This document shows positions 5,012-16,158 of a stretch of 20,340 bases of DNA, one piece after another. The number at the start of each line of letters is the position of its first letter. The stretch's first letter is position 1. Both the position numbers and the translations under genes were made by a program. Under the pieces are notes generated by a model. The model was not told the origin of the DNA, did no database searches, and worked only from the letters and a program-made list of their open reading frames with translations. The stretch is from a virus: positions 1-20,340 of IMG/VR virus record IMGVR_UViG_3300035670_001476. One strand, given 5' to 3'.

Positions 5012-8000
5012 CTAGGTTAGGTAGCTTGTAAATGTTCCGTTAGCGTTCTGGAAGGTGCTTAGAGCCTGTACGACAGCCTCACCAGCCTTTGCACCACTTA
5101 GACGGGTATCTGCGGTCACATTGACATTGTAGGTCACGGAGCCTCCAGAAGCCTTCGCAGCAGCCTGAGCTAGGTCAGCAGAACTCATGCCTGAGCTAAT
5201 ACCAGACAAGTCAACTGTTCCACCAGCTGCAACTGTGTCACGCAACTGCTGATAGATGTCCTGTTTTACTAGCGCACCCGCAGCTTTTGTAGCATCGCTG
5301 ATGTTAGTTGCGTAGCTTCCTGCTTTCTTGATAAGGGCATCAAGCTGATTAAGCGCTGCTTGGTCAACAGGCTTTGGAACTGTCGGTACAGGAATAGCTG
5401 CAATTTCTTGCTTGGCAGCTTGTCTAGCCACTTCCTCCTGTGCGGTTTGAGCAGCGCCCGTAGCAATGTCTAGGTTCGCCTGGAATGCGTCGTTGAAGCT
5501 CTTTGCGAAGTCCTTAGCCTGTTGCTCTAGGACAGCCTGCTGAGAGCGCATACCAGCCAATAGAGCGTCAATTAGAGCCTGACCTGAGTCATAGTAGGTC
5601 TCGGAGACATCGAAACCTAATTGAGCACCTACAGCGTCAATCTCTTGGAATAGAGCGTTGATTTCGCTAATCGTTGCAGATCCGCCATCAACAAGCGCCT
5701 GAGCTGTCTCACCGCCTGCTTCTACACCCGCCTCGACAAGCTGATTGAACAGCATAGGGTCAAGACCCAGGTCACGAAGCTTACGAAGGTTGTCTGCGAA
5801 CGCACGAGCCTTGTCAGCCATCTCCCTAAAGCCATCTAAAAGCCCCTGAGACTTGCTAGAGACGCTATCTAGGGTTTCCTCATAGGAACGAGTCACTGTG
5901 ACATTGAATGCCCGCAAATCGCTTCCTAGCTGTACTACGCCCTTTGACACTTCGTTAACTGTACGAGTCTGTGCTTCTTCAGACAGGTTCCCGAATAGCG
6001 TTGTTAGGTTTAGAACAGAGGTAAAGGCAGAACGGTATTCCTTTATCAAGCTCTCGCTGAGGCTGTACTTCGTTGCAAGTTCATCACGCTTGCGCTGAAT
6101 CTCTGCAAGTAGAGCGAGCTCTTTGTCGGCGTATGCCTGTAGCTGTTTATAGCCAGCTTCAAGCAAGTCACCGGCACGGAAAGCTTGCTTCAGAGAATCA
6201 CGAATAGAATCTGCGTAGTCTGCTACAGCGCCTTCAAACTGCCCAATCTCACGCTCAATAGTGTTTAGAACGCTAAATTCAGCAATCATGTCGCTGAAGC
6301 TGAGTCTTACATCGTCAAAGTGCTCTGCGATAGAAGCTAGTTCTTTAGCTAAGCTTTCTTCGACAGCAGCTACAGCAGCGTCGTATTCAATCCATGCCTG
6401 CTTAGCAGCCTCTTGTGCATCTTCTAGTTCCTTAGCGCCAGCAGCGGTCTTGTAGTACTGCTTCTCCAAATCGGCCAGAGAAATGACACCTTGCTTGATT
6501 TGAAGCCAAATCTTCATCCAGCCTTCAGAGCTGAGAATCTGATCAATGAGACCTTCAGGAGCACCCATCGTCTCAAGCTGTAGACGAGCTCGTTGTTTCT
6601 TGACCTCTTCGGCAATCTTGCCCATGAAGTCACCGACATAATCGGTAATCTTTTGAGTACCACCAGTAGATACTGAGTCGGCTATTTCAGGTTCAATAGG
6701 CTTGAAGTCAGCCATAGTGAGGTTAGAAGCCTTGAGAATGCCCTCTAGGTTCGTTGTGTTTGTGTAAGTCTTCTGTACTTCAAGGATTCTGCCTCGCAGG
6801 AACTCCATGTACTTACCGAAACGGTAGGTTTCAGCAGCAGCAGCATACGCACCTGGGGTGAACTTCTTGTCAAAGTCATTAGCAATAGAGTTAGCAGTAC
6901 CATGAAGCTGTTCTAGGTATGGCTCTGTTTCCTCAACTTGAGAGGTAACGGCTTGCATACCGCCTGCCATAGCAATAAGGGCAGTTGCAGCAAGAACATA
7001 AGGGTTTCTATTTACAACGACATTGAAGGCTTCTTGAGCCGCCTTAGCAGCCCCTAGAGCAGCCGTCATAAGTCCGATTGATACAGCAGCAGTACCCGCA
7101 GTAGTGGCAAGGACTGAAATCCAGTTCCAGTTGTCCTGAATGTATCTAATAAAGCGAATCAGCTCTTTGAGCGCTTCTACGAAGGCAATAGCTAGATCTT
7201 CTGCGATAGGGCCGATGTCATCTGCAAAGCGCTGTAGAACAGGAGCAGAGATGTCAAAAGCTCGCTTTAGTTCAGGGCCAACTACCTCAATAGTTTCACG
7301 CAAAGACTCCATTAGCGATGCCATGACAGGAAGCAGATTTACAGCTACCGTGTCACGCATGTTAGCGAAGGAAGCAGCAAGCTTTAGCTGTTCGGTTGCA
7401 AGGGTTCCAGATTGACGCTGGAAGGCTCCTTGAGCATCAGCAGAGCGCTGGAACAATAGGTCAACACGAATCTGCTGTTCTTCAAAGCGTCGTGCAGCTC
7501 CGGTAAGTCCGTCAAGTCCTCGTGCAGCAAGTTCAGAGTTGATTTCGGATTGCTTCATAGCAACACCGAACTTCTCAATCGGGTCGTATTCACCACGGAA
7601 CAAGGCAGTCATACCCAAGAGGGCTTCTTGCACATCGTAGCCGTAGGTAATTGATAGGTCAGTTGCTAGACCTACTAGGCGCTCTGTCAAGTCAGCAGTT
7701 TGCTGAATGTCAAACCCAGACTGCTTTAGAACAGATCCGATGAAGGTAGATGATTTAGAAGCTTCGTTGAGCGACAGACCCATTTGCACAGCATTAGCGC
7801 TAAAGGTCTTCATCTGAGGCGTTACTTCATCAAAGACGGTCTTCAGACCTGCCATGTTGCGCTCTAGGTCACGAGCACCTGCGATTGCTTGAACAGCAAA
7901 GTCAGCACTCTTGACCGCACCTGCAAACAGAGCAAAACCAGCAGCAGCAAGACCAGCAGTCTTACCTACGGAGCTTACGCCTTTGCCTAGCTGAGATAGT

Positions 8001-8824: not shown

Positions 8825-9225
8825 CTAGTTTCGTGGAAGCGTCTTAGCGACTAACCACCTTTGCATAGTCCAGAGCATTCTCGGAGACTCTTGCATAAGG
8901 ACACTTGGAGCAATCCCAGTCTCAACGGCTAATCCTGCGATAAACCAGTGAGCGGAGGAATCCCCCAAGCCCTTTATTTTGGGTCGTTGCCTGAATCCCC
9001 AACCGAAGCTACGGACTCTAGCCACTTGTCGAACTGATCCTTGGTTCCACCAGTTCGCTTCTCGGAGTGCCAAGCTAGGAAGAGCAGGTGGCTCAACTTA
9101 GTCTCGGCTCCGAGTGCAGAAATAGAAACATTGAACTTATCTTCGAAGGCTACTAGGTCAGCAGCATTGCATGTTACTGACTTAGTAGTACCGTCTTCGA
9201 AAGTGATTTGTAGGTTGATTTTCAT
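8825..9225 (-). CDS. Tail assembly chaperone GT fusion by -1 frameshift (133 aa)
   Basis: The downstream frame (8825-8977) has no plausible start of its own and joins the upstream chaperone frame by a -1 slip at C CCA AAA. The fused product reads the first 83 residues of the short chaperone and then continues IKGLGDSSAHWFIAGLAVET, GIAPSVLMQESPRMLWTMQR, ending VAKTLPRN. The second half is helical with the LLxxxPRMLxTMQR-type segment I associate with the T part of actinobacteriophage chaperones. In lambda the G and GT proteins bind the tape measure and recruit tail tube subunits during assembly and are not kept in the virion. The frame arithmetic is exact: 83 codons, shift, then 50 codons and a stop. 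Placement between tail tube and tape measure agrees. Confidence 0.9.
8974..9225 (-). CDS. Tail assembly chaperone G (83 aa)
   Basis: This is the unshifted product, MKINLQITFEDGTTKSVTCN...DQFDKWLESVASVG, stopping at TAA immediately after the slippery AAA codon. It has a short beta-strand opening followed by helices with an ALGAETKLSHLLFLAWHSEK segment, as in chaperone G proteins. It is made in excess over the fused GT form because most ribosomes do not slip. It acts in the cytoplasm on the tape measure during tail assembly. The ATG at 9225 has AAGGA 6 nt upstream and lies 9 nt after the tail tube stop. Confidence 0.9.
   Translation of the reverse strand: MKINLQITFEDGTTKSVTCNAADLVAFEDKFNVSISALGAETKLSHLLFLAWHSEKRTGGTKDQFDKWLESVASVGDSGNDPK
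8977..8983 (-). promoter_or_regulatory. -1 ribosomal frameshift slippery heptamer C CCA AAA
   Basis: In the chaperone G frame the codons are GAC CCA AAA TAA, giving the canonical X XXY YYZ heptamer CCCAAAA directly before the stop. A -1 slip repositions tRNAs on CCC AAA and continues ATA AAG GGC TTG, which is exactly the open frame that follows. A short G/C-rich stretch just downstream (GGGGG and CCTCC on the minus strand) could pair weakly as a stimulator, but no strong pseudoknot was found. Confidence 0.9.
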
Positions 9226-9234
9226 TTTCTATCC

Positions 9235-9648
9235 TTATGCGGTTGCGTATGTTACTTCACCGGTGGTCGGAAAAGTAACGCTAAAGGTGCTCAAATCGCC
9301 CACGGCCCCTGCGACAGGGGTGAAAGAATTTACAAGCACGGTTGCGCTATAAAGCGGCGTAGTTGCCGAAGCAGCAGTTCCGTTAGCAGCAACGATGGTT
9401 ACAGTACCGATAGTTCCAACAAGGTCTTGGAAAGTAGCAGAAACGCCACCAACTCCAAAGTCGCTGTGGAAGTCAAGCGATACCTGACCGGACTTTAGGC
9501 CACCAATGACCTCTGTCCAGCCTGCTGAGCCGAAGTCTGTTACATCTACCTCAGCGGCGTTGATCACCAGCTCTGCACGGGCACATGAGCTGGAGATGTC
9601 TGTTCCGTTTAGAGTCACCTTAGTACCGGTGGCTACGAACTTACCCAA
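9235..9648 (-). CDS. Major tail tube protein (137 aa)
   Basis: The protein, MGKFVATGTKVTLNGTDISS, then ELVINAAEVDVTDFGSAGWT, GLKSGQVSLDFHSDFG and a beta-rich C-terminus ending TFPTTGEVTYATA, has the plan of small siphoviral tail tube proteins: an N-terminal insertion loop, a two-sheet beta sandwich and a DVTDFGS turn. It polymerises around the tape measure to form the tail tube. It sits between the tail terminator and chaperone genes, as usual. The start codon is TTG at 9648, supported by a strong AAGGAG 5 nt upstream and a sensible N-terminus. A Gly/Ala-rich segment near residues 87-95 (ANGTAASATTP) may be a surface loop. Confidence 0.9.
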   Translation of the reverse strand: MGKFVATGTKVTLNGTDISSSCARAELVINAAEVDVTDFGSAGWTEVIGGLKSGQVSLDFHSDFGVGGVSATFQDLVGTIGTVTIVAANGTAASATTPLYSATVLVNSFTPVAGAVGDLSTFSVTFPTTGEVTYATA

Positions 9649-9657
9649 TTTATCTCC

Positions 9658-10062
9658 TTATGCATAGACGGTGACTGTGAATTCAGCCGCCAAGTAGGTC
9701 TGATCATTTATTTGTATTGACCCAATCGAACCTGTGCTTATTACCCGAAGGTCATAAACAACGCCCGAAAGAGTTCTATTAGATTCTACCGCACTCTTGA
9801 CGGAGTATTCTCCCTCATTCTCGCAGTAGAGATCAAGCTTTCTTTGTTGCTCTCGTTCGGCTGCACGCCCGACGATTACGGTAATCAAAAAGTTGTACTG
9901 AGTAAGACCCTGTTGCATCGCCAGGTCGTAGTCAATGCTATCAAGGCTAACTAGGGCTATAGGCGGAGAAGGGTTGTCGATTAGCTCAGCAGAAGTGCGC
10001 AATCCGCTGATAGTCGCAAGATTAGTTACGAGACCAGCTCGGATGTCAGCAATGCTAGTCAC
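9658..10062 (-). CDS. Tail terminator protein (134 aa)
   Basis: The protein opens with MTSIADIRAGLVTNLATISG and continues PSPPIALVSLDSIDYDLAMQ, TQYNFLITVIVGRAAEREQQ, LDLYCENEGEYSVKSAVESN, ending TYLAAEFTVTVYA. A short helix, the PPxALV strand, a DY-x-GLTQYxF strand with VxVGRxxER, the SVKSAVE helix and a closing AEFTVTVY strand form the pattern I know from actinobacteriophage tail terminators (lambda gpU role). These cap the finished tail tube before head joining. The start is GTG at 10062, which overlaps the connector stop (TAGTG) and has GAGGAT about 7 nt upstream, so translation is coupled. No separate head-tail stopper gene lies between connector and terminator. Confidence 0.8.
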   Translation of the reverse strand: MTSIADIRAGLVTNLATISGLRTSAELIDNPSPPIALVSLDSIDYDLAMQQGLTQYNFLITVIVGRAAEREQQRKLDLYCENEGEYSVKSAVESNRTLSGVVYDLRVISTGSIGSIQINDQTYLAAEFTVTVYA

Positions 10063-10655
10063 TAAGCCATCCTCATTTTCTTGAATGGCGAGATAAGAGC
10101 GTCGATGTCAGGGTCAATGCGACTGACACGGATAACGCCGATGTCACCGATGCCAGCCACTCCTAGAGGTGAGTCCATGCGCTTGAACAAGCGAGAGCTT
10201 AGAAGAATAGTTGCATACTTGATTGCAGTAGGCACAGCAGACCAGCCAAAGGTTCCTACAACCTGCACAGTTACCTCTTCGCCTGACCTAGGGAACAAGT
10301 AGTCGCCTACAGCACGAAGCTGAGTTATAGGGGAAGTGATGCCTCCGGCAATGCCGTTTACAGGCTCGGTCTGATAGTCAGAGGTTGTCCAAGTGACATC
10401 GTAAGTACCGTCAGCAGCAGAGGAGCTCTTTAGGGTTGTGATAGACACGATGTCATCGGTCTCGCACACATAAGAGTCTCTAGGCACGAAGTAGCGGGTA
10501 GCAGCGGTTGTGTAGAACACACGCTCGCAGTAGTCGTCGATTTGGCGTGATGCAGTCTCTACAGCAAGCTCCAGCAGGGTGTCATCGACATTATCCGTGA
10601 TTCGTAAGCTGTCTTTGATCTGCTGAAGTGTGCAATAGCCTTGTGTAATCGCCAT
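10062..10655 (-). CDS. Head-tail connector / adaptor protein (197 aa)
   Basis: The N-terminal half is helical: MAITQGYCTLQQIKDSLRIT, DDTLLELAVETASRQIDDYC. It is followed by YFVPRDSYVCETDDIVSITT and a beta-rich insertion, then PTAIKYATILLSSRLFKRMD and a C-terminal ISPFKKMRMA. This is the HK97 gp6-like connector plan: an LxLxDxxDDxLLxxxxxxAxxxIDxYC opening and a late helix with a basic tail. It forms the ring under the portal to which the tail joins. It is the first gene after the glycosyltransferase cassette. It has no properly spaced Shine-Dalgarno site (AAAGGG is 12 nt from the ATG), but TAGAAT lies exactly 6 nt upstream, suggesting its own leaderless promoter. Confidence 0.85.
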   Translation of the reverse strand: MAITQGYCTLQQIKDSLRITDNVDDTLLELAVETASRQIDDYCERVFYTTAATRYFVPRDSYVCETDDIVSITTLKSSSAADGTYDVTWTTSDYQTEPVNGIAGGITSPITQLRAVGDYLFPRSGEEVTVQVVGTFGWSAVPTAIKYATILLSSRLFKRMDSPLGVAGIGDIGVIRVSRIDPDIDALISPFKKMRMA

Positions 10656-10667
10656 GTAACTATTCTA
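10656..10667 (-). promoter_or_regulatory. Candidate leaderless promoter -10 element (TAGAAT, N6, ATG)
   Basis: Minus-strand TAGAAT (10662-10667, 5 of 6 matches to TATAAT) is followed by AGTTAC and the ATG at 10655. The hexamer overlaps the TAG stop of the nucleotidyltransferase gene. This would restart transcription of the head-tail genes downstream of the accessory cassette. No clear -35 was seen. Confidence 0.5.
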
Positions 10668-11087
10668 CCCTTTACGGATACGCTCTTTGATTGCCGTTGA
10701 GCTAATGCCTTTAGTGTATGGAACATACATAAGGGAAATGCCACGCTCGTCTAACCAGTCCTGAGTAAAGCCCATCTGCTTGTAATAGTCTTTTCTAGCC
10801 CAGTCAGAGCCAATGATTAGAACATCTGGGTCTAACTCATCAACAACATCAGCGCAGTTTTCTTCGCCCCAGTTATGTATGACTTTATCTACGCAACGAA
10901 ACTCTCGTAATACGCCAGCTCGTTCGTCGTAAGACATAACTGGCTTCTTACCCTTGTAGCGCTCAATAAACTCATCGGTATTCAGCACAACGGTAACACT
11001 GCCAATCTCCGCACAGCGCTGAAGAAAAAGCACATGCCCCAAATGAGGGGTGTCGAAGGTTCCCGCCGTTACTACTCTTAGTCCCAT
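10665..11087 (-). CDS. TagD/TarD-like cytidylyltransferase family nucleotidyltransferase (140 aa)
   Basis: Residues 9-18 read GTFDTPHLGH, carrying the HxGH motif that binds the nucleotide triphosphate. Residues 43-58 read RYKGKKPVMSYDERAG, as in glycerol-3-phosphate cytidylyltransferases, and residues 127-135 GISSTAIKE form the family's second signature (ISSTxIK). The length is that of a complete TagD-type enzyme. Such enzymes join CTP (or another NTP) to a phosphorylated polyol or sugar, giving for example CDP-glycerol; the real substrate cannot be read from sequence. It overlaps the GT2-like gene by 10 nt and has AGGGA 7 nt before its ATG, so it belongs to the cassette. It could supply an activated donor to the two neighbouring transferases. 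Confidence 0.85.
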   Translation of the reverse strand: MGLRVVTAGTFDTPHLGHVLFLQRCAEIGSVTVVLNTDEFIERYKGKKPVMSYDERAGVLREFRCVDKVIHNWGEENCADVVDELDPDVLIIGSDWARKDYYKQMGFTQDWLDERGISLMYVPYTKGISSTAIKERIRKG

Positions 11088-11728
11088 CTGTTGTCCCTTC
11101 TGACTTTGAGTGACCAGCCTCTTTCGGTAAGGTCGTGAGCCACCCTTTTGCTTGTAAATAGCGAACGATTCCTATCAAAAGTAAGGGTATTGCGTTCGTT
11201 GTAACCAGATTTGAGCGTTGAGGAGTTGTCATGATGCACCTTTGCGTTTAGGTACTTGAATGGCACACCAAGTTCCTGCATACGCCACTCATAGTCGTCA
11301 TCGTCATAATAGATAGGGTGGAATGCTTCATCCCAAAGCCCTGCTTTTAGTACTGCACCTTCGCCAGGTACTACGCATGACCACTTGGGATTCACATCGA
11401 CAAAGTTGAATGCCTGTGGGTCTACATTCTTTGAGATTATCTCTAGCGCCCCAGGTTCGAACCATGAATCATCATTTGGGATTACCCAGTACTTAGCGTG
11501 AGGCGTTGACTTGATAATCAGGTTCCATGCGCCATTAGCACCTAGCCCATGCGGAACTTGTAATAACCATAGATTTTTTACAAGTTCTGGATTTACCTTT
11601 GGCTCAAATTCTTTCTTGCCTGAGTTATCAACAATAACTAAATGCTCGACAGGATGATCGATTGAATCTATCAATCGTTGTGCCATGTCAAAGCGAGATA
11701 GGGTCGCAAACCCTAGCACCGGAATCAC
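11078..11728 (-). CDS. Family 2-like (GT-A) glycosyltransferase (216 aa)
   Basis: The N-terminus IPVLGFATLSRFDMAQRLID followed by HLVIVDNSGKKEF is the nucleotide-binding beginning of GT-A enzymes. NDDSW at residues 85-89 is the probable metal-binding DxD-type motif. YYDDDDYEWRMQELG at 140-154 matches the acceptor-side acidic loop, and VHH at 164-166 is a likely further metal ligand. At 216 residues it is a compact, soluble enzyme with no membrane segment. It would transfer a sugar from a nucleotide donor; donor and acceptor are unknown. The start is GTG at 11728, overlapping the previous stop as GTGA, with GAGGG 8 nt upstream. It is translationally coupled to the GT4-like gene. Confidence 0.85.
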   Translation of the reverse strand: MIPVLGFATLSRFDMAQRLIDSIDHPVEHLVIVDNSGKKEFEPKVNPELVKNLWLLQVPHGLGANGAWNLIIKSTPHAKYWVIPNDDSWFEPGALEIISKNVDPQAFNFVDVNPKWSCVVPGEGAVLKAGLWDEAFHPIYYDDDDYEWRMQELGVPFKYLNAKVHHDNSSTLKSGYNERNTLTFDRNRSLFTSKRVAHDLTERGWSLKVRRDNRWD

Positions 11729-12909
11729 TTGAATAGCCCTCGTAGAAATGGCATCCAGCGCCAGTTCCAGACGGTCTCTACATCGAATTGAGAGGCGAAC
11801 TCTCTGGCAATCTTAGACTCGCCTCGTTCGGCGTTGTAGGAGTCGCTGAGAGCCTTTACGATGCCGTTTACGGATGGAATCATGAAGTAGGAACCCTGAG
11901 CCTCATCCCAGAACGCCTGCCCGTCTACCTTCCAGCTATCTTCTGAAGCCAAGTCCTGTGATGCAGCAAAATTGCTAGTGATAACTCGTGTGCCACAAGC
12001 CTGAGCCTCTACCGTCGGGATGCCAAAGCCTTCGCCGTATGAGGTGCTTAGCAGAACATCAAAAGCTGAATAGAAAGCAGCCATCTGCTCTTCTGTAAAG
12101 CCCTGTCGCAGGGTGTATGGGTCAGGAAATAGAACATGCTCTTTAGGGATACCTGACATCTTTATCAGCACATCAAGAGCGAAGCCGTTGTATGCCTTAG
12201 ATGGCTCAGAGTGTATGTATAGATAGCTGTCTGGATACTTCTTCTGGTGAATGGCAAAAGCTAGTAGGTTCTCTGCAAACGCCTTACGATGAATCTGACC
12301 ATTAGCCTTGTTAGCTGCAACCATGCCGACTAAGAACGCATCTTCTGGGATTCCCATGTACTCACGGGTTGGGATGCCATCAAACTTATCTGTTGGTTTG
12401 TAGACCTTTGTATCAATGCCGTGAGGAATGTATGTTGACTGAATTCCCATTTGTTCCAACTGTCGCTGACCATGTGGCGACATAGTGATTGGCGTTACAT
12501 TCTCACGCACTAGAAATTCACGGACTCCTGGCGGGAGTGTGATGTGATCTAGAGGAACCCATGAAACAATTTGGTCATCATACTTGAGGTTGTTGTAAAC
12601 CCATACATCGTAGAGAGTGAATAGAACTGTCTTTAGGTCAGGATGTTGCTGTGCAAACTCTTTAGTCCAAACTGGCATGACATCGGTTGAATAAGGTGTC
12701 AATCCTCTTGGGTAATGTGGGATTTCCGTATCACCGATTTTGAGCGTTGACTTTACGCCTTCTAGCCCGTAATTAGATAGTGCGGCTACTTTGAGCCCGT
12801 GACGGAGCATTCTTTCTACAAGAAGCTTGCCTTGATTTCCGTACCCCGTAGGCATCCCAGGGGTGTTTGAAGCTAGTGCGACAGCACCTTGCAGGTTTTC
12901 GTAGGTCAT
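11725..12909 (-). CDS. Family 4-like (GT-B) glycosyltransferase (394 aa)
   Basis: Starting at the ATG at 12909, the protein has the GT-B two-domain plan. The N-terminal acceptor domain opens ALASNTPGMPTGYGNQGKLL. YIPHGIDTKVYKP at about 160-172 marks the domain junction. The C-terminal donor domain has LLSTSYGEGFGIPTVEAQAC, where E293 and E301 form the EX7E motif of GT4 enzymes. No transmembrane segment is seen. It is the first gene of the accessory cassette and lies immediately after the capsid terminator: the T-tract ends 14 nt before its ATG. It has no Shine-Dalgarno site, but TATGGT is 6 nt upstream. The frame extends to a TTG at 12948, inside the terminator hairpin; that longer start adds an implausible Cys/Tyr-rich peptide and was not chosen. 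Confidence 0.85.
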   Translation of the reverse strand: MTYENLQGAVALASNTPGMPTGYGNQGKLLVERMLRHGLKVAALSNYGLEGVKSTLKIGDTEIPHYPRGLTPYSTDVMPVWTKEFAQQHPDLKTVLFTLYDVWVYNNLKYDDQIVSWVPLDHITLPPGVREFLVRENVTPITMSPHGQRQLEQMGIQSTYIPHGIDTKVYKPTDKFDGIPTREYMGIPEDAFLVGMVAANKANGQIHRKAFAENLLAFAIHQKKYPDSYLYIHSEPSKAYNGFALDVLIKMSGIPKEHVLFPDPYTLRQGFTEEQMAAFYSAFDVLLSTSYGEGFGIPTVEAQACGTRVITSNFAASQDLASEDSWKVDGQAFWDEAQGSYFMIPSVNGIVKALSDSYNAERGESKIAREFASQFDVETVWNWRWMPFLRGLFK

Positions 12910-12921
12910 GCAATAACCATA
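12910..12921 (-). promoter_or_regulatory. Candidate leaderless promoter -10 element (TATGGT, N6, ATG)
   Basis: Minus-strand TATGGT (12916-12921) with a preceding TGC is followed by TATTGC and the ATG at 12909. The site begins 2 nt past the T-tract of the capsid terminator, so a transcript that stops there could not reach this gene. The -35 region would fall inside the terminator stem and shows no good match. Confidence 0.45.
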
Positions 12922-12923
12922 GC

Positions 12924-12968
12924 AAATAAAAAGAGGAGCTGCCCGCAACCTACAACGGACAGCCCCTC
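12924..12968 (-). terminator. Strong intrinsic terminator after the major capsid gene
   Basis: On the minus strand 12956-12968 pairs with 12933-12945 in a 13-bp stem (two G-T wobbles). A 10-nt loop lies between them, and TTTTTATTT follows the stem. It begins 16 nt after the capsid stop codon. It would insulate highly expressed capsid mRNA from the glycosyltransferase genes. Confidence 0.92.
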
Positions 12969-12984
12969 AGCTTATTTCGCTAGA

Positions 12985-14139
12985 TTAGCTTGCGCCACCA
13001 ACGAAGTACTTGATGTGACTTGCGTGAGTCAAGTCACCGTCAACACGCATCATCACACGGTAGGTGATGGTGTCAGTGTTGAATGCGTAGTCGGTAGAGG
13101 TTGCAACCTGTAGACCACCAGCAACACGAACCTTGTAAGAAGGTAGGTGGCCGAAGAGTACAGACTTAGCAGCAGTACCGATAGCTGCCATTCCAGGGTT
13201 CTCGATTACAGAGTAGCCAGCAAAGGTGTCAGGGGTTCCAACGCCCACCTGGTATAGGAAGTTGCCAGCGTCATCCTTTAACTTGCGCATTGCACCGATG
13301 GTTGCACCAGCAGCCATGTAAGCAACACCTGGTAGACGACGAGCAGCACCGTCAAGCGAGTACTGAAGGTCGATTAGGTTGTCAGCGGTGAAGCCACCAG
13401 TAACACCAGTTCCACCAGTTACACCAGAGCCAGCAGCGGTTACAACACCGTTAGGCTTGCTTGATCCGTCACCAGTAGTTAGTGCAGCGTTGATTGCGTA
13501 ACCTAGACCGTTACCAGCCTGCTCAGCTAGGTGAGCAGAGATGTCGAATCCTGCATCGCTTACTAGTTCTGCGGCTACTGGGATGAGCAGACCGTACTTG
13601 TAGGCTCCTAGGGTGATAGAGCTGTAGGTAGGCTCAGAGTCAGCTACGGTTCCAGCAGCAGCTACTAGAGCAGCGGTGCTGTATGCAGTTAGGGTTGGGA
13701 TGGTGATGTCCTCACCAGAAGCGGTGTTGATTCTCTCACCGACATCTAGCATTGGGCCAACCAAACGAGCAACATCGAATACCTGGTCGTAGAACGACTT
13801 AGGAACGGTGTTGGTAGAAGGGGTTAGAGTACGCTTCTCGAAAGTGTGTGCACCACGAGTGTTAGCAATCTCACGAAGGATAGCGGAAGCAGAACGCTCC
13901 TCTACCGATGGGATGAAGCCCTGAGCAGCTACAGATGCCTCTAGCTTGCGCTCTTCGTTGCGGGTTGCTACAGCGATTGCCTCGTCAGCACGACGAATGT
14001 CGACCTCGATAGCGTCGATTTTTTGTAGTTCAGCTAGGTCAAGCCCACGCTTCTCTGCTTCTGCTGATTCGATTACATCACGAATCTGCATGGTCAGGTT
14101 AGCACGGAGTTCCTGCTGAGCCTTGATGAACTCAGACAT
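12985..14139 (-). CDS. HK97-fold major capsid protein (384 aa)
   Basis: The first 95 or so residues are helical and charged (MSEFIKAQQELRANLTMQIR, EKRGLDLAELQKIDAIEVDI), matching the delta/scaffold domain that the prohead protease removes. The mature part follows: TPSTNTVPKSFYDQVFDVAR, the E-loop region with ITIPTLTAYSTAALVAA, KYGLLIPVAAELVSDAGFDI, the hallmark AALTTGDGSSKPNGV, and a C-terminal P/A-domain with ITYRVMMRVDGDLTHASHIK. This is the phage_capsid HK97 family. A short Gly/Val/Thr repeat (SGVTGGTGVTGGFT) lies in a probable surface loop. The ATG at 14139 has AAGGAG 5 nt upstream, the strongest ribosome site in the head region. The gene sits alone between two terminators. Confidence 0.97.
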   Translation of the reverse strand: MSEFIKAQQELRANLTMQIRDVIESAEAEKRGLDLAELQKIDAIEVDIRRADEAIAVATRNEERKLEASVAAQGFIPSVEERSASAILREIANTRGAHTFEKRTLTPSTNTVPKSFYDQVFDVARLVGPMLDVGERINTASGEDITIPTLTAYSTAALVAAAGTVADSEPTYSSITLGAYKYGLLIPVAAELVSDAGFDISAHLAEQAGNGLGYAINAALTTGDGSSKPNGVVTAAGSGVTGGTGVTGGFTADNLIDLQYSLDGAARRLPGVAYMAAGATIGAMRKLKDDAGNFLYQVGVGTPDTFAGYSVIENPGMAAIGTAAKSVLFGHLPSYKVRVAGGLQVATSTDYAFNTDTITYRVMMRVDGDLTHASHIKYFVGGAS

Positions 14140-14258
14140 TTAGTCTCCTTATTATTAGTTTCGGATAACCAGCGGCGTTGACGCACAACTGAATACGGCA
14201 GAGCTGACTCACATCCGTTATGTAAATTTTACAAGAACTTGGACAAGCGGTTTCAGGT
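14140..14258 (-). promoter_or_regulatory. Capsid gene leader with candidate promoter
   Basis: This stretch between a terminator and the capsid ATG holds no gene. A possible promoter on the minus strand is CTGAAA (14251-14256), a 19-bp spacer and TAAAAT (14226-14231, 5 of 6 matches to TATAAT), giving a leader of about 80 nt ending in AAGGAG. The promoter is a guess from sequence; the long leader and strong ribosome site fit high, separately set capsid expression. Confidence 0.4.
14221..14233. repeat. Inverted repeat TGTAAA-T-TTTACA in the capsid leader
   Basis: A perfect 6-bp inverted repeat with a 1-nt centre overlaps the candidate -10 of the capsid promoter. It could be an operator-like site, or simply a by-product of an AT-rich -10 region. 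Confidence 0.4.
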
Positions 14259-14295
14259 AAAGGAAAACCCCACCAGAGAAAGATAGCTGGTGGGG
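14259..14295 (-). terminator. Intrinsic terminator upstream of the capsid gene
   Basis: On the minus strand 14287-14295 (CCCCACCAG) pairs perfectly with 14268-14276 (CTGGTGGGG). The 9-bp stem closes a 10-nt loop and is followed by TTTTCCTTT. It begins 23 nt after the stop of the 78-residue gene and would end the terminase-portal-protease transcript. Confidence 0.88.
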
Positions 14296-14318
14296 CGATT
14301 CCCGTTGCTTGGCAGGTA

Positions 14319-14555
14319 CTAGCGAGTAGCCTCTGGCTTGGTTACACGGGTTTCCTTAGCTGGTCTTTCGAAAGGTGTACCCTCTTGGACTACGCCGTCG
14401 CCATCTGCATCTTTAGCATCTGACTTGAAGGGTACTGGAGCATCCAGACCAACGATTGCGTCTGCGAATCGGTCAGCGTATTCTGCGATAACGCCCGACT
14501 CAGGGTTACCGGCAACCGTCAAGATTGCCTTTTTGATGTCATCTCTTGTTGCCAC
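14319..14555 (-). CDS. Small acidic protein with calcium-loop-like motif (78 aa)
   Basis: The N-terminal half is a helical MATRDDIKKAILTVAGNPES followed by IAEYADRFADAIVGLD. Residues 49-60 read DADGDGVVQEGT, which resembles the D-x-D-x-D-G loop of EF-hand and related calcium-binding repeats but lacks the usual acidic twelfth residue. The tail is polar and rich in Lys/Pro/Thr (ERPAKETRVTKPEATR). I recall similar small proteins between the protease and capsid genes of actinobacteriophages, without known function. It could be a head-assembly factor or a minor head component. The start is GTG at 14555, with AGGA 6 nt upstream, 1 nt after the protease stop. A terminator follows. Confidence 0.75.
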   Translation of the reverse strand: MATRDDIKKAILTVAGNPESGVIAEYADRFADAIVGLDAPVPFKSDAKDADGDGVVQEGTPFERPAKETRVTKPEATR

Positions 14556-14556
14556 T

Positions 14557-16158
14557 TTAGATCCTGTCCATGAGTAGTTGTAGCTTCTTCTTTTTGAGCT
14601 CTAGCATAGCCTCGCTCGTATCAGGCTCCGCCTGTACTTCCTCAACTGCTGGAACTAGAGAGTCTACAGCCTGAGTAATAAGTCTGCCCTCGTCGGCAGT
14701 TAGGTCGTCGCCCTGTTCTAGCTTGATCATTGCATCTGCCAAAGCGTCTGCATCGATTCCTGAGCGCTGAGCTACCTTGTCCAAACCACGAACGCTTACA
14801 GTACCTGCGGTTGAGCTATAGGCAGGGAAGGCAACCAAACTGACCTCATGAAGTCTGACTGAGTTTAGAGTGCGCTCTGCACCGTCTGTGCTCCATGAGT
14901 CTCCGCCCTGTGGAACAGAGAAGCCAAAGCTCATTGAGTCAATGTCACCTCGGCGTAGTAGTTCTGCAACATCACGACCACGAGAAGTGTTAGGCAATAG
15001 ACCGTCGACCTTTAGTCCGTGAGAGTCCTCAGATAAGGTCAGAGTTCCTGCACGAGTAGAACCTAGGATTTCGCCTGTGTCGTGGTTCCAGAGGAACTTG
15101 ATGTCGTTGCGAGCACGGAGTGACTTGCGGAAAGCTCCTGGAGCAATTCGCTCGGTGAATGGTAGAGGCTCTGATGGAGAGTTGAATACGGCAGCATAAC
15201 CGCTGAAGCGCATCCCTTCGCCTTCTTCTCTGACCTCAAACTGCGTGTGATTTACACGAGTCTCAATCTTTGACAATGCTTCGCCTTTCGCTCTGCCTTC
15301 ATTCTCAGCTTCAATTCTAGCAACTACGCCCTCTGCATGGGCAAGAGCTCGTTGTGCTGCTCGCTTTGATGGGCCAGAACCCCAAAGCAAGTGAGCAACT
15401 ACGCCAGCACTAGGATAATCAGCGGAATCAGGTCTAGCGGAGGGCGAATCCAAATCCACAAGATGACGAGCAATCCAAGCCCGAATCCTAACCCACTTGT
15501 CAGCCGTGACATTGCCCTGCGCCATTGCCCTAGCTTCACGGATAGTTGCGTCAACCAGTCCATCTCCGCCCTTGCCTTCTTCGTAATAGCGCAAACCCTG
15601 ACGGGCTGCTGCTCGCATGTAGGCTGGTGGAGTTAGGTTGACTGCTCTTTGATCAGATGGGTCTGGCTCGGGATAGGTGTCAGGTTCCATTTCTTCTGAT
15701 GGTGGAGTTAGACGCTCAATCTTCTGAACTGACGAAACATGTTTTGCAACAAACTCACCCGTCTCAACCCAACCATCCATAGTCTCTTCGTAAACCTGAA
15801 TTAGTAATGCAGGGTCTAGGACTGATCCGTTGAGGTGGATTCCGCTACCTGGGACTGCGATGCTACCGGCTTCGACGAGCTCTTGGACTTCGCCGTACTT
15901 GGTTTGCTTTCGGTCTTTGAAGACGACATAGTCTCCGACTTCAACTGTGCCTTGGGCGGCTCTGGATTCGTAGTTGTCGGAATTCCGCTCTTGTGGGGTA
16001 TAAGTGCCACCTGGTTCTATCCCTTCTGATAGTGAAATAGCGACCATCTGGTCGATAGCGCCTTGTTTGGTCGTGTGACATCCTAAGACATCGCCATTGT
16101 CTTTTACAGTTGCCCAACCTGAGCAATCTGGTGATTTATCTGTGATGAAGTATGGCAT
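14557..16158 (-). CDS. Prohead serine protease with N-terminal accessory modules (533 aa)
   Basis: Residues about 315-448 are an HK97-type prohead protease: MRFSGYAAVFNSPSEPLPFT, APGAFRKSL, FLWNHDTGEILGSTRAGTL, DSMSFGFSV, LHEVSLVAFPAY. His359 and Ser410 are the probable catalytic pair, about 50 residues apart as usual. It cleaves the capsid delta domain during maturation. The N-terminal 300 residues are extra. Residues 1-47 (DKSPDCSGWATVKDNGDVLG) form one module. Residues 70-147 form a small beta, SH3/Tudor-like module (VEVGDYVVFKDRK...VPGSGIHLNG). Residues 176-282 form a helical module with RAWIARHLVDLDSP and VVAHLLWG. The C-terminus is a Lys-rich helix. The ATG at 16158 overlaps the previous stop (ATGA) with GAGG 8 nt upstream; an in-frame TTG at 16188 is less likely. 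Confidence 0.93.
   Translation of the reverse strand: MPYFITDKSPDCSGWATVKDNGDVLGCHTTKQGAIDQMVAISLSEGIEPGGTYTPQERNSDNYESRAAQGTVEVGDYVVFKDRKQTKYGEVQELVEAGSIAVPGSGIHLNGSVLDPALLIQVYEETMDGWVETGEFVAKHVSSVQKIERLTPPSEEMEPDTYPEPDPSDQRAVNLTPPAYMRAAARQGLRYYEEGKGGDGLVDATIREARAMAQGNVTADKWVRIRAWIARHLVDLDSPSARPDSADYPSAGVVAHLLWGSGPSKRAAQRALAHAEGVVARIEAENEGRAKGEALSKIETRVNHTQFEVREEGEGMRFSGYAAVFNSPSEPLPFTERIAPGAFRKSLRARNDIKFLWNHDTGEILGSTRAGTLTLSEDSHGLKVDGLLPNTSRGRDVAELLRRGDIDSMSFGFSVPQGGDSWSTDGAERTLNSVRLHEVSLVAFPAYSSTAGTVSVRGLDKVAQRSGIDADALADAMIKLEQGDDLTADEGRLITQAVDSLVPAVEEVQAEPDTSEAMLELKKKKLQLLMDRI

Follow-up and report, generated by a model that had tools for sequence, protein, structure and literature searches.

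A modular glycan-enzyme slot behind the capsid gene of an aquatic phage and the predicted pairing of its capsid terminator loop with two translation starts

The locus and its setting

The window analysed here is the complete 20,340-base IMG/VR record IMGVR_UViG_3300035670_001476, a viral sequence whose structural genes all lie on the minus strand. They run in the order small and large terminase, portal, protease, major capsid protein (MCP), two glycosyltransferases (GT1 and GT2), a nucleotidyltransferase (NT) and connector, followed by the tail terminator, the major tail protein (9648-9235), a putative tail assembly chaperone (TAC), the tape measure and further tail genes. The three-gene cassette between MCP and connector, and an intrinsic terminator behind the MCP gene whose loop is complementary to the translation starts of both GT1 and TAC, are the subjects of this work.

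The MCP (12985..14139, minus strand; PF05065, E 2.2e-50; phrog_10) has the HK97 fold and the head-tail connector (10062..10655, minus strand; PF05135, E 4e-8; phrog_442) is gp6-like. The putative TAC (8974..9225, minus strand; phrog_6889, function unannotated) is so labelled because it lies between the major tail protein and the tape measure and carries a slippery CCCAAAA at 8977-8983, immediately ahead of its stop codon, and an overlapping open reading frame in the -1 frame (9073-8825). Together these would make up the programmed frameshift classically seen in tail assembly chaperone genes. The closest named phage is Pontimonas phage phiPsal1 (MG835450), whose host belongs to the Microbacteriaceae, and relatives of the MCP (68-71%) are binned in a Microbacteriaceae metagenome-assembled genome found by a cellular-genome scan. 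The host is therefore likely to be an aquatic actinobacterium, binned viral contigs being weak host evidence.

Enzymes of the cassette

The preliminary description of this DNA had placed three overlapping enzyme genes between MCP and connector, and its coordinates and overlaps are exact: GTGA at 11725-11728 between GT1 and GT2, and 10 nt at 11078-11087 between GT2 and NT. GT1 (11725..12909, minus strand, 394 aa; phrog_2170, E 4e-44) belongs to the GT4 family of GT-B glycosyltransferases by Pfam score (PF13692/PF00534; 35.6 bits against a gathering cut-off of 27 for Glycos_transf_1 / Glyco_trans_1_4) and by an EX7E motif, present as EGFGIPTVE. Its closest solved relative by sequence is the chlorella virus glycosyltransferase B736L. 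GT2 (11078..11728, minus strand, GTG start, 216 aa; phrog_29879, E 1e-35) has no Pfam match. Its structural model (pLDDT 92.6) gives 323 matches in the PDB with E no higher than 0.001, the top ones glycosyltransferases; the matches include AvpGT, the WrtF fucosyltransferase, GlfT2 and TarP. D87 (of NDD) and D143 are invariant across 21 relatives, and judged by modelled fold and acidic metal-site motif GT2 is a GT2-like GT-A glycosyltransferase. The two classes first proposed, GT4-like GT-B and GT2-like GT-A, are thus borne out, one by Pfam and EX7E and the other by structure prediction and fold search. Codons ~30-60 of GT2 (window 11549-11641) share 40-57% DNA identity with the closest relative, L002, the remainder of the gene mostly 80-97%, a mosaic block that suggests recombination in the part likely to bind the nucleotide sugar.

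NT (10665..11087, minus strand, 140 aa; PF01467, E 2e-19) is cytidylyltransferase-like, with an HLGH (HxGH) motif and TagD (1coz, E 1e-18) as closest solved relative. The TagD/TarD-like assignment made earlier holds to that extent only: as a TagD glycerol-3-phosphate cytidylyltransferase NT scores far under the curated cut-off of TIGR01518 (76.8 bits against 165), and YTKGISST stands in place of TagD's RTEGISTT, i.e. Arg is replaced by Tyr in RTxGISTT. An activated polyol as product is a guess, since NT misses the TagD cut-off and departs from the TagD motif. The curated cut-off for heptose-1-phosphate adenylyltransferase (RfaE2) is missed as widely (TIGR02199, 79.4 bits against 181.5). The ratios dN/dS against L002 are 0.03, 0.12 and 0.07 for the three genes, as expected of proteins under purifying selection; because of these values, and because dozens of relatives retain the genes, the cassette is not a chance assembly.

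A modular slot between capsid and connector genes

Loci of relatives (given L-numbers) were gathered by IMG/VR scans with GT2, MCP, connector and then four divergent MCPs, together with the cellular-genome scan. They supply 198 distinct MCP-to-connector intervals, in which counts are not prevalences, the queries favouring the genes searched for. The intervals show 48 gene arrangements: 72 hold GT1-GT2-NT and 22 are empty, with GT1 occurring in 170, GT2 in 140 and NT in 97. GT1 is nearly always the first gene of the slot. Added genes are mostly glycan-related, comprising further glycosyltransferases (GT2-like, GT4-like, GT17), methyltransferases, an NDP-sugar epimerase, an RmlD-like reductase and a UDP-glucose/GDP-mannose dehydrogenase. 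Mapped onto a 70-MCP tree, the arrangement switches at least 22 times and the presence of NT 14 times. Locus L075 has an empty slot although its MCP and connector are 78% and 73% identical to those of the window.

By these comparisons the slot is a modular insertion hotspot, an exchangeable locus of glycan enzymes. A fixed core shared by all close relatives, which the preliminary description had named in advance as counting against it, is ruled out by empty and rearranged slots, L075 and the 22 or more arrangement changes among them. Its picture of a moron-like insertion fits what was found: a promoter of the cassette's own, co-oriented core genes on both flanks, and absence from relatives (22 of 198 intervals). 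In L160, L354 and others an antisense HNH-endonuclease-like gene lies between MCP and GT1, ahead of the cassette; it is possibly a homing agent that moves the cassette.

A capsid residue that tracks GT1

Presence of GT1 is associated with the state of one MCP residue, Ser238 (codon 13426..13428, minus strand; TAAGS238GVTGGTG), which in the window lies in TAAGSGVTGGTG. Of 159 phages with GT1, 156 have Ser or Thr in this column; the 17 empty-slot phages and 6 others lacking GT1 never do, having mostly Ala or Glu instead; four of those six carry GT2 alone and also lack Ser/Thr at 238. Its Fisher value, 5e-23, is the lowest of all MCP columns, the next being T322 at 2e-14. The best column in control proteins (connector, tail terminator, tail tube) reaches 1e-10 and gauges the phylogenetic background. 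Ser or Thr is found at T322 in 90% of phages with GT1 and 6% of those without, and at T136 of the tail tube in 94% and 38%. These may be second sites or phylogenetic background, and the T136 association falls within that background.

Alignment to solved HK97-fold capsids puts Ser238 in the segment that follows the conserved PNG motif; in the MCP model (pLDDT a mediocre 71 overall, ~90 around Ser238) it occupies a short strand before a Gly-rich loop. Ser238 is placed in the A-domain and may face outward. The association is suggestive of GT1 acting on the capsid, with Ser238 as the best candidate acceptor of a glycan. Several observations weigh on the other side. GT1 presence and Ser238 state each change ~6 times on the MCP tree, and the independent contrasts (3 concordant, 0 discordant, 1 without difference) are too few to reach significance. 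L089, L091 and L190 carry GT1 without Ser238. The known glycans of mycobacteriophages are at capsid and tail-tube C-termini and not in an internal segment (as cited in PMC12619734), and no C-terminal MCP column stood out here as an acceptor of that type. Virion glycosylation, raised in the preliminary description, is thus favoured by the Ser238 association, short of proof.

The enzymes could instead modify a host cell-wall polymer, for example in blocking superinfection. NT is TagD-like and TarP is among the fold matches of GT2, polyrhamnose occurs in the wall of a Pontimonas host, which also has many wall glycosyltransferases (PMC6106888), and such a role has been proposed for glycosyltransferases of freshwater actinophages (PMC10202952). 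In all filled relatives found, however, the slot is part of the virion operon and follows the capsid gene; the late-gene position would leave little time for exclusion; and the association with Ser238 would go unexplained. Wall modification is accordingly regarded as unlikely, if the most serious competitor of a virion glycan.

Terminator and promoters

The intrinsic terminator hairpin of the MCP transcript spans 12933..12968 on the minus strand (fold z -6.3 against shuffles) and is the sole strong terminator detected within 9000-14600. The preliminary description had correctly seen it upstream of the cassette, missing that it belongs to the capsid unit, as is evident from its presence 3' of MCP in filled and empty slots alike, and missing too the complementarity of its loop described below. 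The same account had proposed promoter-like hexamers before the cassette and before the connector gene. Separate promoters there are indeed indicated, of a form other than that envisaged: no sigma-70 two-hexamer promoter was found at the GT1 or connector start, and both starts carry TANNNT-N6-ATG. At GT1 the predicted -10 element is TATGGT (12916..12921, minus strand), arranged as TATGGT-TATTGC-ATG, 6 nt before the ATG; TANNNT-N6-[AG]TG occurs at 139 of 205 distinct GT1 starts against 6.6 after shuffling. At the connector it is TAGAAT (10662..10667, minus strand), arranged as TAGAAT-AGTTAC-ATG and overlapping the NT stop codon, and TANNNT stands 5-8 nt ahead of 50 of 69 distinct connector starts. 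In actinobacterial promoters TANNNT is the -10 element and frequently gives leaderless mRNAs (PMC3898074). Given this rule and the conservation of the motif, the cassette is probably a separate leaderless transcription unit.

A terminator loop complementary to two translation starts

The terminator loop, UGUAGGUU (12947..12954, minus strand), is complementary to two translation starts in the window. TAC codons 3-6, CAACCUACAA (9208..9217, minus strand), lie 3.7 kb downstream and form a 10-bp complement of it; GT1 codons 2-7, ACCUAC plus AACCUGCAA (12889..12906, minus strand), contain a loop complement giving a 9-bp duplex with one G-U. Predicted duplex energies with the loop are -13.8 kcal/mol for TAC, -11.8 for GT1 and -6.0 for the connector as control. 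Rfam has no match within the window at gathering threshold.

Among the relatives the match persists through more than 15 loop sequences. Loop UCUAGGUU goes with AACCUAG at both TAC and GT1 starts, the tables for this pair being 31-0-0-10 for TAC, with at least two independent switches, and 33-0-0-13 for GT1. Other matched pairs of loop and partner include UGCAGAUU with AAUCUGCA, GCGUAGG with CCUACGC, CGCGUAGA with UCUACGCG, UGGAGGUU with AACCUCCA, UGGUUGAU with AUCAACC, UGGUUGGU with ACCAACCA, GUAGGGU with ACCCUAC, UUGUAGGUCA with UGACCUACGA (one G-U) and CAUCGCAGGA with UCCUGCGAUG, which spans the AUG. The match is not a codon effect, since the partner falls outside the coding region in L142 (GT1 partner in the 5' leader) and in L031 and L378 (TAC partner upstream of the AUG).

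Watson-Crick runs of at least 7 are found at 107 of 138 TAC starts (78%) and 99 of 198 GT1 starts (50%), as against 1/161 for the connector, 4/160 for the tail terminator, 0/136 for the tail tube, 3/141 for GT2 and 1/95 for NT; the 5' stem arm of the hairpin reaches such a run with TAC in 0 of 141. Permutation tests used one random representative per distinct loop, and the p values quoted are the lowest that the number of permutations allows. Loops score 18.2 with their own TAC starts against 13.4 with those of others (p at most 2e-4), and for the 22 loops without UAGGUU the values are 21.2 and 14.0 (p 5e-5); GT1 starts against loops give p 5e-5. When the gene starts of a locus are ranked by their match to the loop, TAC comes first or second in 52 of 54 loci, not all of them independent, and no third recurrent target was found among the gene starts of 54 loci. 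Relative to the AUG, most paired sites fall at +6 to +13 or -9 to -6, inside the ribosome footprint. The TAC match is retained in empty-slot phages and at MCP identity down to 43%. A seed complementary to target starts and kept so by covariation is one mark of an antisense regulator derived from a 3' untranslated region (UTR), and pairing of loop and starts is strongly supported by these sequence comparisons.

Less favourable to such pairing, half of the GT1 starts fall short of 7 pairs, and pairing is lost in L143, L145-148, L150-158, L371/375, L385/393 and L395-406, mostly with small loops. By eye no evident match of loop and chaperone is seen in Rhodococcus phages REQ1 and Shagrat (connector ~28% identical), and no TAC was recognised in the prophages found in Streptomyces, Nocardioides and other actinobacteria (MCP ~40%). 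A single-strand RNA-binding protein does not fit, because the covarying sequences are complementary and not identical. In L140 the loop also matches very strongly the start of a 198-aa open reading frame at 7829 (score 28), a match that does not recur elsewhere. L018 and L020-L022 have a second, inserted hairpin-containing segment of ~150 bases between MCP terminator and GT1 (first 240 bases after MCP), and loop/GT1 complementarity is maintained across it.

Reverse-complementary DNA matches would likewise covary if loop and starts were operators, in opposite orientation, of a phage regulator of changing specificity. Such operators are improbable: the site is in the loop of a hairpin and not in its stem (0/141), the TAC site is within an operon rather than at a promoter, the match admits G-U pairs (L140, L339, L180), and the partner is displaced in some loci, to the 5' UTR in L142 and to a position ahead of the AUG in L031 and L378. 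Somewhat less probable again is an autonomous moron without ties to phage assembly or regulation; its own promoter and the empty sites in relatives would suit one, but the start of GT1 changes in step with the loop of the MCP terminator, and whether a phage has GT1 goes with the residue at one MCP position. Least probable is glycosylation of modified bases in the phage DNA, of which phage glycosyltransferases are capable and which has been proposed for related actinophages (PMC10202952), as no base-modifying gene is seen in the partial 20 kb record, the phiPsal1 annotation shows an N6 DNA methylase as its sole DNA modification, and the swapped-in sugar-nucleotide enzymes and structural slot fit a surface glycan better.

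Relation to known systems

Phage phiPsal1 has the same slot (MCP-GT1-methyltransferase-GT2-neck), with GT1 55%, GT2 38% and MCP 68% identical to those of the window. It differs in that an antisense methyltransferase replaces NT and the match of its terminator loop to TAC extends over no more than 6 bp. Homologous GT1 proteins are encoded inside the head genes of Synechococcus phage S-CBS4 (25%) and Microcystis phage Mae-JY09 (37%), the former also having GT2 (29%) and a methyltransferase; these are cyanophages with different neighbours, and in S-CBS4 the position differs as well. For mycobacteriophages, Freeman et al. 2023 reportedly described virion glycosylation; phage-encoded glycosyltransferases in actinophages and a proposed virion target are shared with the present case. 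Whereas glycans were located there at C-termini of capsid and tail tube (as cited in PMC12619734), an internal capsid residue is implicated here, and, unlike in the mycobacteriophage systems, the genes occupy a modular slot next to MCP. Searches by tblastn with GT1 or GT2 as query returned no mycobacteriophage glycosyltransferase.

In RNA phages the coat message pairs over a long distance with the start of another phage gene. The present case differs in concerning a double-stranded DNA (dsDNA) phage, a terminator loop and, probably, pairing between separate transcripts. CisR of Vibrio is a bacterial small RNA derived from a 3' UTR that represses translation (PMC13250501), and RNAs of its type likewise share a terminator with an mRNA and match the start of another mRNA. 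The candidate phage element, by contrast, belongs to the capsid gene of a tailed phage, would use the terminator loop as seed, and has the phage's own chaperone and glycosyltransferase as predicted targets.

Elsewhere in the window, 747-2090 encodes a 447-aa glycine-rich, tail-fibre-like protein (phrog_2295), a possible adhesin.

A proposed capsid-linked circuit

The above observations can be combined as follows. GT1 would start an O-linked glycan on the virion, MCP Ser238 being the best candidate site; GT2 and the swapped-in enzymes would lengthen or vary it, and NT would provide an activated building block. The cassette would have a leaderless promoter of its own, 3' of the MCP terminator, while the 3' hairpin loop of the abundant MCP mRNA would base-pair with the GT1 and TAC translation starts. 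Pairing would probably block ribosome entry, repression being the simplest outcome because the paired sites sit within the initiation footprint. As the leaderless GT1 mRNA lacks the hairpin, the loop would act in trans, or in cis within read-through transcripts. GT1 and TAC, both low-dosage proteins, would thereby be kept scarce relative to capsid. This explanation as a whole, from exchangeable slot and virion glycan to a capsid-mRNA loop repressing GT1 and TAC, is held with moderate confidence.

TAC looks to be the older target, with GT1 recruited into the circuit later, because empty-slot phages, and loci with MCP identity as low as 43%, retain the TAC match. It is fairly probable, by a shade less than the explanation as a whole, that the capsid gene doubles as a regulator, its loop setting TAC dosage, and that cassettes evolved the same target so that capsid mRNA controls the amount of GT1. 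Small RNAs derived from 3' UTRs and phage virion glycosylation are each already known kinds. The covarying loop and starts suggest an RNA switch not described before; a non-exhaustive search of the open-access full-text literature turned up no account of one.

How dsDNA phages balance the amounts of capsid, tail-tube and chaperone proteins is a long-standing question, for which a candidate RNA circuit, defined by sequence and maintained across wide divergence, is offered here. The capsid residue and modular slot make virion glycosylation testable in abundant uncultured aquatic actinophages, in which swapping of cassettes may serve to vary the virion surface.

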